A stretch of 49,667 bases of DNA from NCBI GenBank assembly GCA_017858365.1, contig JAFMBQ010000002.1:1-49667 (forward strand). Direction: 5' to 3'. The DNA is from Algoriphagus sp. GTDB lineage: Bacteria > Bacteroidota > Bacteroidia > Cytophagales > Cyclobacteriaceae. The notes under the pieces are model-generated. The model saw only the letters and a list, made by a program, of their open reading frames with translations, made no database searches and was not told the DNA's origin. The position numbers and the translations under genes are program-made. The stretch's first letter is position 1, and every line of letters begins with the position of its first letter. Positions 1-5,840 of the stretch are shown here, piece by piece.

Positions 1-339
1 TACCCCTTGAGGGAAAGCATAGCTCAATCCTAACAGCCCTGTCCAGATAAAGCGTAAGCAGAGATGGACTACAAAGAAGATTTTGAAGACGCTGATTATG
101 CCGGTCAAATAAAAAATAAGAAGGCCGCTAAAAAGTATACCCACTCCAACATCTTGATTCAAATAGGCACAAAACTCATAGATCTTGGCTGGGAAGACGA
201 AGAGGAATGCGAGTGTAATACCTGAAATAATAACTTCAGGCTCCCAGCTGTTTCGCTGGAGATTTTCCAGCCAAGTGAGTTGTTCCTGCTTTCGGTCTGT
301 GTCGGGACTCTTTTCTTCCATAGTTTTCTCTTTATCCAT
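1..339 (-). CDS. Membrane protein, C-terminus beyond window edge (partial)
   Basis: I do not recognise the family. The 113 visible residues begin MDKEKTMEEKSPDTDRKQEQ, a charged cytoplasmic-looking head, followed by a hydrophobic segment at about residues 36-56 and a long hydrophobic stretch at about 66-108 (one or two more membrane spans). The start ATG at 337-339 overlaps the stop of the response regulator gene by 8 bases (ATGGATAA), so translational coupling is likely. It is the last visible gene of the receptor-TPR-kinase-regulator operon. In other LytS/LytTR networks a membrane transporter or channel is often the output, but that role is only an inference here. The start is chosen for the overlap and the conserved operon spacing. 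Confidence 0.7.
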   Translation of the reverse strand, partial: MDKEKTMEEKSPDTDRKQEQLTWLENLQRNSWEPEVIISGITLAFLFVFPAKIYEFCAYLNQDVGVGILFSGLLIFYLTGIISVFKIFFVVHLCLRFIWTGLLGLSYAFPQGV

Positions 340-1084
340 CTAACCAACTCTTGAAATCTGCTGTTTTTTCCCGACTGATCAAAATATCATCATCTTGGCA
401 ATTCTGCAGTTTGATTTTTAGTCGGCTGTTTGAGTAAGTGAATATATCAGAAATAGAAGGGAAGGAACAAAGGTATTTTCTGTTTAGTCTGAAAAATGAG
501 ACAGGATCTACTTGGCTTTCGATCTGTTCCAAGGTCTGATCTAAGACAAACTGTTTCCCCTCTTTGGTTTGTAGAAATGTCACCCGAGCTTCGCTGAAGA
601 AAAAGGAAACTTCTTCGATCCCGATGCTCTGAATCTTCTCCCCAAATTTTACCAGGAATCTAGATTTGAAATTGGTGGTCTTCGGTAAAAGCAGTTCTTT
701 TAGTGCTTCTAAATCAAAGTTTGGTTTTAATTGATTTGCCTTGAATTTTGAAATTGATCTGGCCAATTCTTCCGGATCAATTGGCTTGAGTAAATAGTCT
801 ATTGCATTTACTTTGAAAGCTTTGATCGCGTATTGATCGTAGGCGGTCGAGAAAATAATCGGTGTGGATAACTTTACCTGTTCGAAAATTTCAAAGCTGA
901 TTCCATCAGCCAATTGGATGTCGCAAAAGATTAAATCAGGATGCGGATTTTCTGCAAACCATTGAATAGATTTCTTTACAGAATCTAATCCTTGAATAAA
1001 CTCTTCTCCACCAAAATACGCCTCTAATAGCCTTATTAACCGATTTGCCGCAGGCCGTTCATCTTCTATAATTACTATCCTCAT
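332..1084 (-). CDS. LytTR-family response regulator
   Basis: A 250-residue regulator with an N-terminal receiver domain (acidic pocket E7-D8, phospho-acceptor D55 in FCDIQLADG, the conserved lysine in LLKPID near residue 101) and a C-terminal LytTR DNA-binding domain from about residue 140 (typical 'FLVKFGEKIQSIGIEEV' strand and 'FFRLNRKYLCS' region). It should be phosphorylated by the kinase encoded directly upstream; the two genes share ATGA (stop of the kinase at 1081-1083, start at 1082-1084). LytTR proteins bind paired direct repeats spaced about 21 bp, and exactly such a repeat lies at 5123-5153 before the operon's first gene, so autoregulation of the receptor operon is the likely job. 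Confidence 0.95.
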   Translation of the reverse strand: MRIVIIEDERPAANRLIRLLEAYFGGEEFIQGLDSVKKSIQWFAENPHPDLIFCDIQLADGISFEIFEQVKLSTPIIFSTAYDQYAIKAFKVNAIDYLLKPIDPEELARSISKFKANQLKPNFDLEALKELLLPKTTNFKSRFLVKFGEKIQSIGIEEVSFFFSEARVTFLQTKEGKQFVLDQTLEQIESQVDPVSFFRLNRKYLCSFPSISDIFTYSNSRLKIKLQNCQDDDILISREKTADFKSWLDG

Positions 1085-2249: not shown

Positions 2250-2894
2250 TCAATTGCAGTTCTTCATTAATTCAACCATTTGGTTTTTTCCCCAAGTAGG
2301 AAGAATGTAAGTCTCAGTGATTTTTGCTTCCTCATTTTGATAGAGCTCCATACTCATTCTAGCCATTCCACAAGCCTTATCCGGACCAGAACCAAAGAAT
2401 TTAGACATGCCCAATTCCATTTGTGACATCAAGTTAACCGCTCGGGGATTGCTACGATCTTGGGCAATAGCTTTTCCGAATAGCTCCATTACCTGTGGAC
2501 TTAGACTTTGACCTCTGCTTCCAGGATCGACGCTTACCTTACCCATTAAGATGTAGCCATGGAGTGCGGTGATCTCTGAATTACTCGGTGAGATTTCCTG
2601 AGCTTGCTTGGTAATTTCCAATGCTTGATCAAAAAATTGATCTTTGTTCACGTCGAATCGAAAAGCCGTTTCTGTTTGAGTCAAGGCTGCATAATAAAGT
2701 GGAAGCCATTCTGCTTCGTTTGCTGATGCAATTCGCATAAATCCATTGATTACAGACTGGGCATCTTCGGAGTTTTTGATTTTGTTTTTTTCCTGAATTT
2801 GTTTCAGCATGGCTTCTTCAAATGCAGAAGATGAAGCAAGAGCAAGAGTTATCCACATTAGGGATAGGAGCGTAGTTAAGATGTACTTTTTCAT
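2250..2894 (-). CDS. Secreted TPR-like protein
   Basis: A 214-residue protein with a Sec signal peptide (MKKYILTTLLSLMWITLALA) and a helical body resembling tetratricopeptide repeats (for example FFDQALEITKQAQEISPSN and the helix pairs near residues 85-165). There are no catalytic motifs. It begins 11 bases after the end of the TonB-dependent receptor gene and is presumably co-transcribed. Small periplasmic TPR proteins are common partners of TonB-dependent receptors in Bacteroidota, but the exact function is unknown. An 89-base gap separates it from the histidine kinase gene. Confidence 0.85.
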   Translation of the reverse strand: MKKYILTTLLSLMWITLALASSSAFEEAMLKQIQEKNKIKNSEDAQSVINGFMRIASANEAEWLPLYYAALTQTETAFRFDVNKDQFFDQALEITKQAQEISPSNSEITALHGYILMGKVSVDPGSRGQSLSPQVMELFGKAIAQDRSNPRAVNLMSQMELGMSKFFGSGPDKACGMARMSMELYQNEEAKITETYILPTWGKNQMVELMKNCN

Positions 2895-2905
2895 GATTTT
2901 TTGAT

Positions 2906-5065
2906 TTATAGGTTGTTTAAATTATTTGCTGTTTTGTCTTTTGATAGGGTTAGGAAAATTCCCAAGAATAGAAATCGAGGAGCTACTTGCCCTTGAGGAA
3001 TGGATTCAAAACTACCTTGGGAGTTTGCTTTGGGACTGAAGGTGTAACCAAAAACATTATCTCTTCCCAGTACATTGGTACAGGCTAAATGAATGATGAG
3101 GTTTGGCTTTGGCAAGTAACTCCAGGATATGCTTAGGTTTTGAAAGCTCTTGGTTTTGGCATTCATTTCGGACTTATCCACATTGGGATTGGTGTATGAA
3201 TAGCCATCATTGTAGGCAAAAGAAGCTCCCAGTTGGGATTTGAGAGGAACTATAAAATGCTTGACTACTGCTGAGAGGTTGTGCTTTGGAGCGAAACTGG
3301 GTTGAACCTGAGTTTCAAATTGGTTAAAGCTCCGCTTGCTATCTACAAAGCTGTAGGTAATCCAATAGTCTGTATTTCGGAACGTTTTTCGATCTCGGAA
3401 GAAGAAGTCAATTCCTTTGGCATAGCCTGAACCTCCATTTTCCAAATGGATTGGTTTGTCCAACATTCCTTCAAAAGTGACTAGGTTATCATAAGACTTA
3501 TAGAAGGTTTCCGCTCTGAAGGTAAATCCGTCTTTGGAAAAGAGGTGGTTTAGAATTAGATGATTTGATTCTGAATTTTGGAGATTTGTGTTCAAAACGT
3601 GAAAGTTATCCACAGGCAATTGATGAAAGCTACCTGCGGCAAATGACAATTGACCTTTTTCTTTCAACTGGTAGGCAACTGAAAATCTAGGATCCAGCCA
3701 TTTTTCTTTAGAGACACTACTTGTTCCAGCTCTCAAGCCACCACGGAATACCAAATCCTTGTTTAGGTAAAAATCCCATTCTGTGAATAAGTAGGTTTCC
3801 TGGTCTTCAAAATCCCTAACCCATCCTTCTCGGATTAACTTTTCTGAATAGGGGTGGATGAAATGCTCCACTCCGAATTTGGCAGAAAGGCGATCTGAAA
3901 AATCTTTGACTGCGGTACTTTTGAGGTGGATAAGTTGAGTTGACCGTTCGATTTGAAGGGAATCAAAAGCAATATTATCGAGGTTTTTTGAGTAGGATAT
4001 ACCGGCAAACACAATCCAGTCATTTTCCAAAGCGGTTCTCCAATTTGCCTGTGCATAGCTATAATCATTTTTCAGATCAACCAAAACCTTCCGGTCTGTT
4101 CCTGGTAGAGGTTGCCAAAGACTCATTCCACCAGATTCTGTTCTGGCCATCACTTTAAGCAAGCCATTTTTACCTGTTTTCTTCTGTGCAGCTATTTCCA
4201 CGTCCCAAGCTTTTGGAGCTGCTTCAAAATCAATTTCTTGTTTGATTAAGCCTTGATATGGGGAGAGATTGAAATAGTTGGCACTTGCTGTGATACTTTG
4301 TTTTTCGTCTGCAAGGGTATGGGAATATCCTCCTCCCACTGACATTAGGCTAAGATCTCCCTGGCTACGGATGGATAGGTCTTTTGTATTTAGTGCCAAA
4401 GCCGAGGAAAGTGCTTGGCCATACTCGGCAGAGTAGCCTCCGGTACGAAAAAATGTTCCTTTGAATAAATTTGGGTTGAATCTTGTTCTGGTAGGAACAT
4501 TTCCAGCGGTGGTCCCATAAGCATTTCCCACTCGCATCCCGTCTATATAGATCCCTACTTCGCTGGCATCTCCGCCTCTTACGAAAAGCCGGCCGTCATT
4601 TCCAACAGTACTTGTGCCGGGAAGGGTTTGAAAGGCACCCATGATATCGCCCATGGCGCTAGGTGTGGTCACGATATCTAATGGCCGGAGGATTACTGAT
4701 TTACTTTCATCAGATGCTTCCATAGCGCCAGCAGAGATGGTCACTGCATTCATTTCGGTGATTTCTTCAGTCAGGACAATGGCCTCGATTTCTAAGAGTC
4801 CGGCTTTGCACTCGATGCTGAGATGACTGGATTTGAAACCCATAAACTGGAATACTAAAATCTGGTATCCTTTTGACTCAGTTTCAAAACGGTAGCTGCC
4901 ATCTATTTTGGAGGTAGCACCCTCGTATCCTCCTTTTATAAAAACGTTTACCCCAGGAAGTGCTATCCCTTTTTCGTCCACTACTTTCCCACTCACCTCC
5001 GTTTATCCAAAAGCAAAGGATTGTAAAAGGAAAAAGTAGGTCAGTAGAAGCAGCTTGGTTTTCAT
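2906..5065 (-). pseudogene. TonB-dependent receptor interrupted by in-frame TAA after the signal peptide
   Basis: From ATG 5063-5065 the frame reads a good 20-residue signal peptide (MKTKLLLLTYFFLLQSFAFG), then TAA at 5003-5005, then continues in the same frame as TEVSGKVVDEKGIALPGVNV and 690 further residues of an intact outer-membrane receptor. The body has a carboxypeptidase-regulatory-like domain (about 1-80 after the stop), a plug with RLFVRGGDASEVGIYIDG, and a beta-barrel. CAA to TAA (Gln to stop) would explain the break, since 'FGQ' is a natural signal-peptide cleavage context. A GTG at 4994-4996 opens the remainder but would make a receptor with no export signal. It may be a true pseudogene, a sequencing error, or rescued by readthrough. 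First gene of the operon with the LytS/LytTR pair. Confidence 0.88.
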
Positions 5066-5122
5066 TTCGATCCGTATTTGAATCAAATGTGCAGCATAAG
5101 ACCGCCTCAAAGAATTAAATCT

Positions 5123-5153
5123 GACTGAAGTGTAGGATAACGCGACTGAAGTG
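5123..5153. promoter_or_regulatory. Predicted LytTR regulator binding site (direct repeat, 21-bp period)
   Basis: GACTGAAGTG occurs perfectly at 5123-5132 and again at 5144-5153, separated by 11 bases, i.e. a 21-bp period or two helical turns. This 10-N11-10 layout is the known architecture of LytTR operators such as that of E. coli YpdB. It lies 58 bases upstream of the receptor ATG. Between them on the minus strand are TTTG (5108-5111) and CACATTTG (5084-5091), a possible Bacteroidota promoter (TTTG / TAnnTTTG, one mismatch, rather short spacer), which would put the repeat at an activator position. Confidence 0.65.
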
Positions 5154-5265
5154 AAGAATTGGGTATATGATTTTATTTGAAGATTGGTTCAATGGGAGCT
5201 CAGGGCTGAACGAATTCAGTTTTTGAGAATAGAATTGAGAAGAGGGAATGAAGATTTCATTAAGC

Positions 5266-5361
5266 ATGAAAGCTTTTTTGATATTCTACACCGCTTGGCT
5301 AGCCTTGTTGAAAAATGAGGGTAGTGAAAACACGTTGTCCACCTTATTTTTCGGAGATTAA
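5266..5361 (+). CDS. Possible 31-residue peptide
   Basis: The frame begins MKAFLIFYTAWLALLKNEGS and ends FFGD. Its TAA shares bases with the ATG of the next small frame (TAATG at 5359-5363), a coupling geometry. It has a hydrophobic N-terminal half. I recognise no family and no ribosome binding site; it may be chance. Confidence 0.15.
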   Translation: MKAFLIFYTAWLALLKNEGSENTLSTLFFGD

Positions 5362-5600
5362 TGCGACTATTGAGTTTAATACTTTCTAGCCTGATTTCTC
5401 TTTGCTTGGTAAGCAGAAGTGACGCGGGTGATGATAATTTTGATCATCTTCCAACAGGAATTCAACGTCTCTTTAAATTTATTTTTCAGAGTGATTGGAC
5501 TAGTGCGTTTTATTCTGATGCAGGTAATATTTCCGATTTAGTGACAATCAGGCCACACAAAATCACTAAATACAGGAACTCGGCTATCATTAAAGGATAG
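5361..5600 (+). CDS. Possible small secreted protein of unknown function
   Basis: A 79-residue frame starting MRLLSLILSSLISLCLVSRS, which looks like a signal peptide or membrane segment, followed by a polar region (DAGDDNFDHLPTG...). It overlaps the preceding 31-codon frame by TAATG. No family is recognised. It lies in a 775-base gap, so it could be a small gene, a remnant or a chance frame. Confidence 0.25.
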   Translation: MRLLSLILSSLISLCLVSRSDAGDDNFDHLPTGIQRLFKFIFQSDWTSAFYSDAGNISDLVTIRPHKITKYRNSAIIKG

Positions 5601-5840
5601 AACATTAGATGGCCTTTAGAGCCAAGGTTGAACCAACTGAAAAATCCAATCTGGAGGCTTTTTTCTATTTTTGCAAAACAGTACAATTACCTACAGAGAA
5701 AATTAGTGGGAAGATTGACGGCTAGTTGTCTAACTAACGTGGCATTACATCTTAAATCCTTGGAAGAATTTTAAAATGAGATTTTACTTGCTACAAATGG
5801 ATAAAGGGAATGGCTTAAAAACTAAAAATAAAAGCAGCGT

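Follow-up and report, generated by a model that had tools for sequence, protein, structure and literature searches.

A 21-bp-phased direct repeat, the probable operator of a co-encoded LytTR regulator, upstream of a TonB-dependent receptor operon in Algoriphagus

What is the function of a perfect short direct repeat that stands upstream of an operon encoding its own sensor kinase and LytTR regulator? The window analysed here, a whole stretch of 49,667 nucleotides from Algoriphagus sp. (contig JAFMBQ010000002.1), holds GACTGAAGTG-N11-GACTGAAGTG at exactly 5123-5153 with 0 mismatches, confirming the initial annotation in its description of a perfect 10-bp direct repeat of 21-bp period upstream of a receptor operon. 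In the orientation of the operon, which lies on the minus strand, the sequence is CACTTCAGTC-N11-CACTTCAGTC; it ends 57 bp upstream of the receptor start codon. Its promoter-proximal half-site, ACACTTCAGTC, occupies 5123..5133 (minus, predicted -54 to -44), and the distal half-site, TCACTTCAGTC, lies exactly 21 bp upstream of it at 5144..5154 (minus). None of 100 shuffles of the window gave such a repeat. With up to three mismatches allowed, the window contains this single match and the 4.76-Mb assembly one further match, which bears all three mismatches. LytTR operators are built from a pair of direct half-sites, each some 9-11 bp long and spaced at a period close to 21 bp, and the repeat has this geometry. 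Judged from the sequence comparisons described below, the repeat is very probably the operator of the LytTR response regulator encoded in the same operon.

The operon is read from the minus strand in the order TonB-dependent receptor, TPR-like protein, LytS-type kinase, LytTR regulator and the start of a membrane protein. The receptor (2906..5065, minus; CarboxypepD_reg-like and Plug domains) had no relative among PDB sequences at E<=0.001. We place its start at 5065 rather than at the GTG (4996) of the open-reading-frame list, since the gene begins 69 bp earlier in relatives from the genus and a TAA occupies codon 21 of the window copy. Where the window has this in-frame TAA (5003-5005, minus), all 44 other loci compared, among which some strains occur twice, carry a glutamine codon (CAA or CAG). 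It may be a true nonsense mutation or an assembly error and, if real, the receptor may not be made in this strain. The TPR-like partner (2250..2894, minus) has by eye a signal-peptide-like N-terminus; the window copy is without a Pfam match, and the copy in the relative L033 gave weak TPR matches, all under the curated cut-off. A kinase of the LytS type (PF06580; 1081..2187, minus), whose gene end overlaps the start of the regulator gene, and a regulator with a receiver (PF00072) and a LytTR DNA-binding domain (332..1084, minus) together have the composition of a LytS/LytTR two-component system, as the initial annotation had proposed. The N-terminal part of a membrane protein (1..339, minus) is cut by the contig end. 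The order receptor, TPR, kinase and regulator recurs in 42 of 77 sufficiently long loci (at least 8 kb; 77 of 80 regulator-homologue loci plus L171-L175), from Algoriphagus to Dyadobacter and Saprospiraceae, with some contigs ending before the receptor. Of 18 Algoriphagus-type loci, 11 encode the membrane protein; one N-terminal fragment was seen in addition. The membrane protein named in the initial annotation is an optional member of the operon. A DUF4221 gene follows the operon in several relatives.

Conservation of the repeat was assessed in 53 receptor-bearing genomes of the genus, one of which (G035) was left out of the pair count as its contig begins inside the gene. A 21-bp-phased pair of CACTTCAGTC-like half-sites was present in 52/52 genus genomes with upstream DNA, at scores of 16-22 of 22, and a score of 16 was reached by 3 of 10,400 shuffled sequences. 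The distance from the end of the pair to the receptor ATG is 56-58 bp in 51 of these 52 genomes. The upstream alignment comprised 72 of 75 receptor-hit loci (L001 is a duplicate; L043 and L056 are without the gene start), of which L070, L071, L083 and L089 were dropped for having no clear pair at the expected place; the remaining 68 were reduced to 53 by removal of near-duplicates. In a motif-free autocorrelation, 39 of these 53 non-redundant upstreams had an 11-mer that recurred at offset 21 with 9 or more matching positions (shuffle mean 0.5), a count that excludes the four distant loci just named. Among the other offsets from 12 to 44, offset 42 reached 4/53 and all the rest at most 2/53, with shuffle means of at most 0.8 at every offset.

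The operator is retained although the genes upstream of the operon vary between loci (an M14 peptidase, recQ, efflux genes or an amidohydrolase), which favours the reading as a LytTR operator. An alternative is that the repeat belongs to the divergent neighbour recQ or is a non-regulatory duplication. In the window the next gene upstream is indeed recQ, on the opposite strand, and the interval from 5160 to 5840 between operator and recQ is without an ORF of at least 90 codons. The site is, however, 688 bp from recQ as against 57 bp from the receptor start; among loci of at least 8 kb a recQ match lies upstream of the operon in L037 only, with the site kept; and a chance duplication would not stay conserved at one offset. 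We regard both forms of this explanation as barely credible, and the reading as a LytTR operator is retained.

A sequence-only profile was built from 32 Algoriphagus operators, which themselves match by construction; its E-values are rough owing to a short calibration. In the genome of the window it returned the site itself at E 1.3e-12 and the next match at 0.14. Among 72 genomes of the genus, 52 have a site at E<1e-3, each at one place. Such a site is found in 51 of 53 receptor-bearing genomes and in 1 of 19 receptor-less ones, so that in the genus the operator is conserved together with the LytTR regulator gene. The two receptor-bearing exceptions are G035, with its truncated contig, and G015, in which the pair has diverged. 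Co-absence in the receptor-less genomes is weaker evidence than the count implies, because most of their assemblies are small and far from whole (completeness of 91% or less in 17 of 19). The regulator orthologue was absent from 6/6 receptor-less genomes tested, where the best match had at most 34% identity. The single receptor-less genome that does carry the site (G029, 100% complete) shows the operator, then a short receptor-like fragment, recognised by eye, and then a DUF4221 gene (L171:2280-2450); from this arrangement the operon has apparently been deleted and the operator left as a relic.

A wider regulon was looked for, and no convincing second site was found in the 72 genomes, the best match outside the operon having E = 0.0058 in a search with stricter filters and 83 candidates scored per genome, in which weak sites can be missed. 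Of 14 weak matches chosen for inspection, one of them from the genome of the window, 13 lie inside ORFs of at least 80 codons and one is intergenic with a partial motif. The self-contained circuit suggested by the initial annotation is thus backed by one strong profile site per genome. Its central proposal, a LytTR operator, gains from the 21-bp phasing, the fixed place upstream of a predicted promoter and the conservation. The initial annotation had also named absence of the repeat upstream of orthologous operons as evidence against itself, and the opposite was seen: the pair is kept throughout the 52 genus genomes and in other Cyclobacteriaceae, and is looser in Dyadobacter and Saprospiraceae relatives, while by the initial score L070, L071, L083 and L089 had no clear pair at the expected place. 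Under looser counts L083 has a strict pair and L070, L071 and L089 have one with one mismatch.

A third, weaker half-site was recognised a further 21 bp upstream and is new here. In 43 non-redundant genus flanks the core TTCAGT matches at exactly this offset with a mean of 4.02 of 6 bases, compared with 1.62 (sd 0.51) at other offsets; offset -26 is also high (3.79 of 6), through overlap with the distal half-site. Four or more of the six core bases were matched in 30/43 flanks and five or more in 18/43, while the window, at 5165..5175 (minus), is weak with 3 of 6. Seven rows of the upstream alignment were anchored via the distal pair, which biases toward a third half-site, and the figures given come from a re-count without distal-anchored rows, in which L018 was left out and 43 non-redundant flanks remained. 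In several Dyadobacter three half-sites are visible by eye.

Beyond the genus the pair is kept in other Cyclobacteriaceae and in Dyadobacter. A distant set of 45 loci with regulators 43-50% identical was scanned over 6 kb upstream. The strict pair AC[AG]N[TC]TC[AG] occurred at 21 bp on the coding strand in 12/45 loci, with at most 1 locus at any other spacing from 14 to 29. When one mismatch was allowed the 21-bp pair was found in 21/45, with at most 3 at other spacings, and on the opposite strand of the distant loci there was no pair at 21 bp. The remaining 24 of 45 had no pair within 6 kb upstream at one mismatch, several of their contigs ending early. The site is conserved across the genus and present in a looser form in part of the distant relatives. 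Seven of the strict distant cases are without this receptor, and there the pair stands ahead of operons with kinase and regulator at the end and different genes at the start. By eye, three Myroides loci have nothing before the kinase, followed by a small protein and the regulator, L068, L072 and L092 have a small secreted-looking protein first, and L107 has another receptor-like protein. Since the first genes vary ahead of kinase and regulator, the operator appears tied to the kinase-regulator pair, and in these distant bacteria it seems, by this sequence survey, to track that pair and not the receptor.

Some distant loci contain additional pairs. A second 21-bp pair, with one mismatch, lies between the receptor and TPR genes at L080:6125, L089:6134, L095:5751 and L101:5711, and is perhaps a second autoregulated promoter. 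Four Myroides loci have a further one-mismatch pair, roughly 1 kb upstream of their main operator (L073:5054, L074:5020, L082:5031 and L088:5029).

The genome of the window has 10 LytTR domain matches, so cross-binding is possible and the repeat could serve another LytTR paralogue, or an unrelated protein, in place of the co-encoded regulator. We consider this improbable. An operator shared with the genome's other LytTR loci was looked for and rejected: around the nine other domains, covered by 8 stretches of which some are cut by contig ends, there was no 21-bp pair with up to one mismatch, and one chance-like pair each at spacings 20 and 22. Operator and operon are jointly missing in 18 of 19 receptor-less genomes, with no regulator orthologue in the 6 tested, and the seven receptor-free distant loci place the pair ahead of operons ending in this very regulator subfamily. 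The co-encoded regulator is accordingly kept as the preferred ligand, and its protein sequence is compatible with this role. Its ten best named matches are all from Algoriphagus (76-64% identity), and E7, D8, D55, T80 and K100 are invariant in 10 aligned regulators. The LytTR domain profile had no PDB match better than E = 0.044, so the DNA-contact residues were compared solely via the motif named in the available passage of PMC4227749; where that motif reads FFRCHNS in AgrA, the regulator has FFRLNRK. Taken together, these residues are consistent with a phosphorylated DNA-binding LytTR protein.

Does the bound regulator activate or repress? Information content in the upstream alignment peaks at the two half-sites and their flank, at a T-run 8 bp downstream, and at CAnnTTTG with the following bases 18 bp further. 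In the window the predicted -33 element, TTCTT (5110..5114, minus; the T-run of relatives), thus lies 8 bp downstream of the proximal half-site in a Bacteroidota promoter layout, and the predicted -7 box is CACATTTG (5084..5091, minus), reading CAnnTTTG where the Bacteroidota consensus is TAnnTTTG. The part of PMC9723704 available to us places that consensus box at -12 to -5, and from this spacing transcription is predicted to start at 5079 (minus), about 14 nt before the ATG, with half-sites centred near -49 and -70. According to an excerpt of PMC6193735, autoactivating LytTR sites are biased to 10 bp upstream of the -35. The predicted distance from half-sites to start also resembles that of the AgrA repeats near -60 (PMC4227749), a figure that in the available passage could refer to the pair or to the nearer repeat. 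On these predicted promoter elements, the layout suggests activation. The repeat could instead be an operator at which the regulator represses, the operon being off until a signal releases it, as binding upstream of a promoter can repress through looping or by blocking another activator. We hold this to be unlikely: 8 bp separate the proximal half-site from the predicted -33 element, the promoter is left uncovered, and the layout resembles the autoactivating sites and AgrA repeats of the same two partly available sources (PMC6193735, PMC4227749).

An inverted repeat of the type GATTC-N6-GAATC at 5069-5084 (minus) spans the predicted transcription start. Its arms covary in those Algoriphagus leaders that have a common register (27 of 38 distinct ones), with relatedness uncontrolled and the register picked from the data. 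Paired cells amount to 88% compared with 80% in shuffles, extra pair types to 10 compared with 7.7 (68 of 2000 shuffles reach 10) and double-change cells to 14 compared with 4.3 (1 of 2000 reaches 14). The 16 G:T-type and 9 A:C-type combinations do not settle whether the palindrome acts as RNA or DNA; its 5′ arm is probably outside the transcript.

Under the preferred reading, activation by the co-encoded regulator, the following sequence of events may be envisaged. The LytS-type kinase would sense a signal, perhaps linked to import by the TonB-dependent receptor, and would phosphorylate the regulator at D55. Each half-site would then be occupied by one regulator molecule, both on the same face of the DNA, with a third molecule perhaps bound further up in many relatives, and the bound regulator would recruit RNA polymerase to the -33/-7 promoter. 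Receptor, TPR partner, kinase and regulator would be switched on together, giving a circuit that amplifies itself and acts chiefly on its own operon. A broader reading, which we advance tentatively as nearly but not quite as plausible as its opposite, is a Bacteroidota-wide autoregulated cassette in which this LytTR subfamily and its kinase would assemble cooperatively on up to three 21-bp-phased half-sites and control essentially their own operon only. The cargo between operator and kinase would be swapped: a TonB receptor with its TPR protein in some operons, one small secreted-looking protein in others, and no cargo at all in the rest.

These observations provide a concrete and testable DNA code for one Bacteroidota LytTR subfamily. 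The TonB-dependent receptor is linked to a sensor with probably few other targets, so that the inducing signal should be traceable with one reporter, and the third half-site allows LytTR binding to be tested against a cooperative-array model. LytTR autoregulation via direct repeats is in itself a known class of mechanism. What is new is how widely the site is conserved, its third half-site, the single-target design, the swapping of cargo and the predicted activation-type promoter layout.

Searches of the open-licence literature, which count as weak evidence of absence, gave for Bacteroidota LytTR regulators predicted repeats in Bacteroides only, and no described operator of this kind. The closest case found is that of the predicted repeats of Bacteroides 'LRS-like' LytTR operons (PMC6193735, in excerpt), 11-bp direct repeats separated by N11 and lying 11 bp upstream of a Bacteroidota promoter, for which autoactivation was proposed. 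According to that excerpt the 'LRS-like' regulators differ in having transmembrane segments, a membrane-protein partner and a half-site of the TCCGGTATTCA type, whereas a kinase and a receiver-LytTR regulator are found here. An LRS proper comprises a regulator without a receiver domain that is held by an inhibitory membrane partner (PMC6193735); membership of the present regulator was considered and rejected, since by the LRS features given in that excerpt its receiver domain (PF00072) with D55 sets it apart. Outside the Bacteroidota, Escherichia coli YpdB likewise has two direct repeats upstream of the promoter at PyhjX, about 21 bp apart as read from the printed probe in the portion of PMC4847170 at hand, and its motif GGCATTTCAT has the TTCA core in common with the present half-sites. 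Exactly 21 bp upstream of site A the yhjX probe shows a weak 5/8 core match by eye, under the script threshold of 6, and this match is given no weight here. Staphylococcus aureus AgrA at P2/P3 also acts with two direct repeats upstream of the promoter, near -60 (PMC4227749, in the passage available). In contrast to both, the operator described here faces a predicted Bacteroidota -33/-7 promoter, has as its target its own operon including a TonB-dependent receptor, shows an additional, weaker half-site in 30 of 43 genus sequences and occurs as one strong site per genome.
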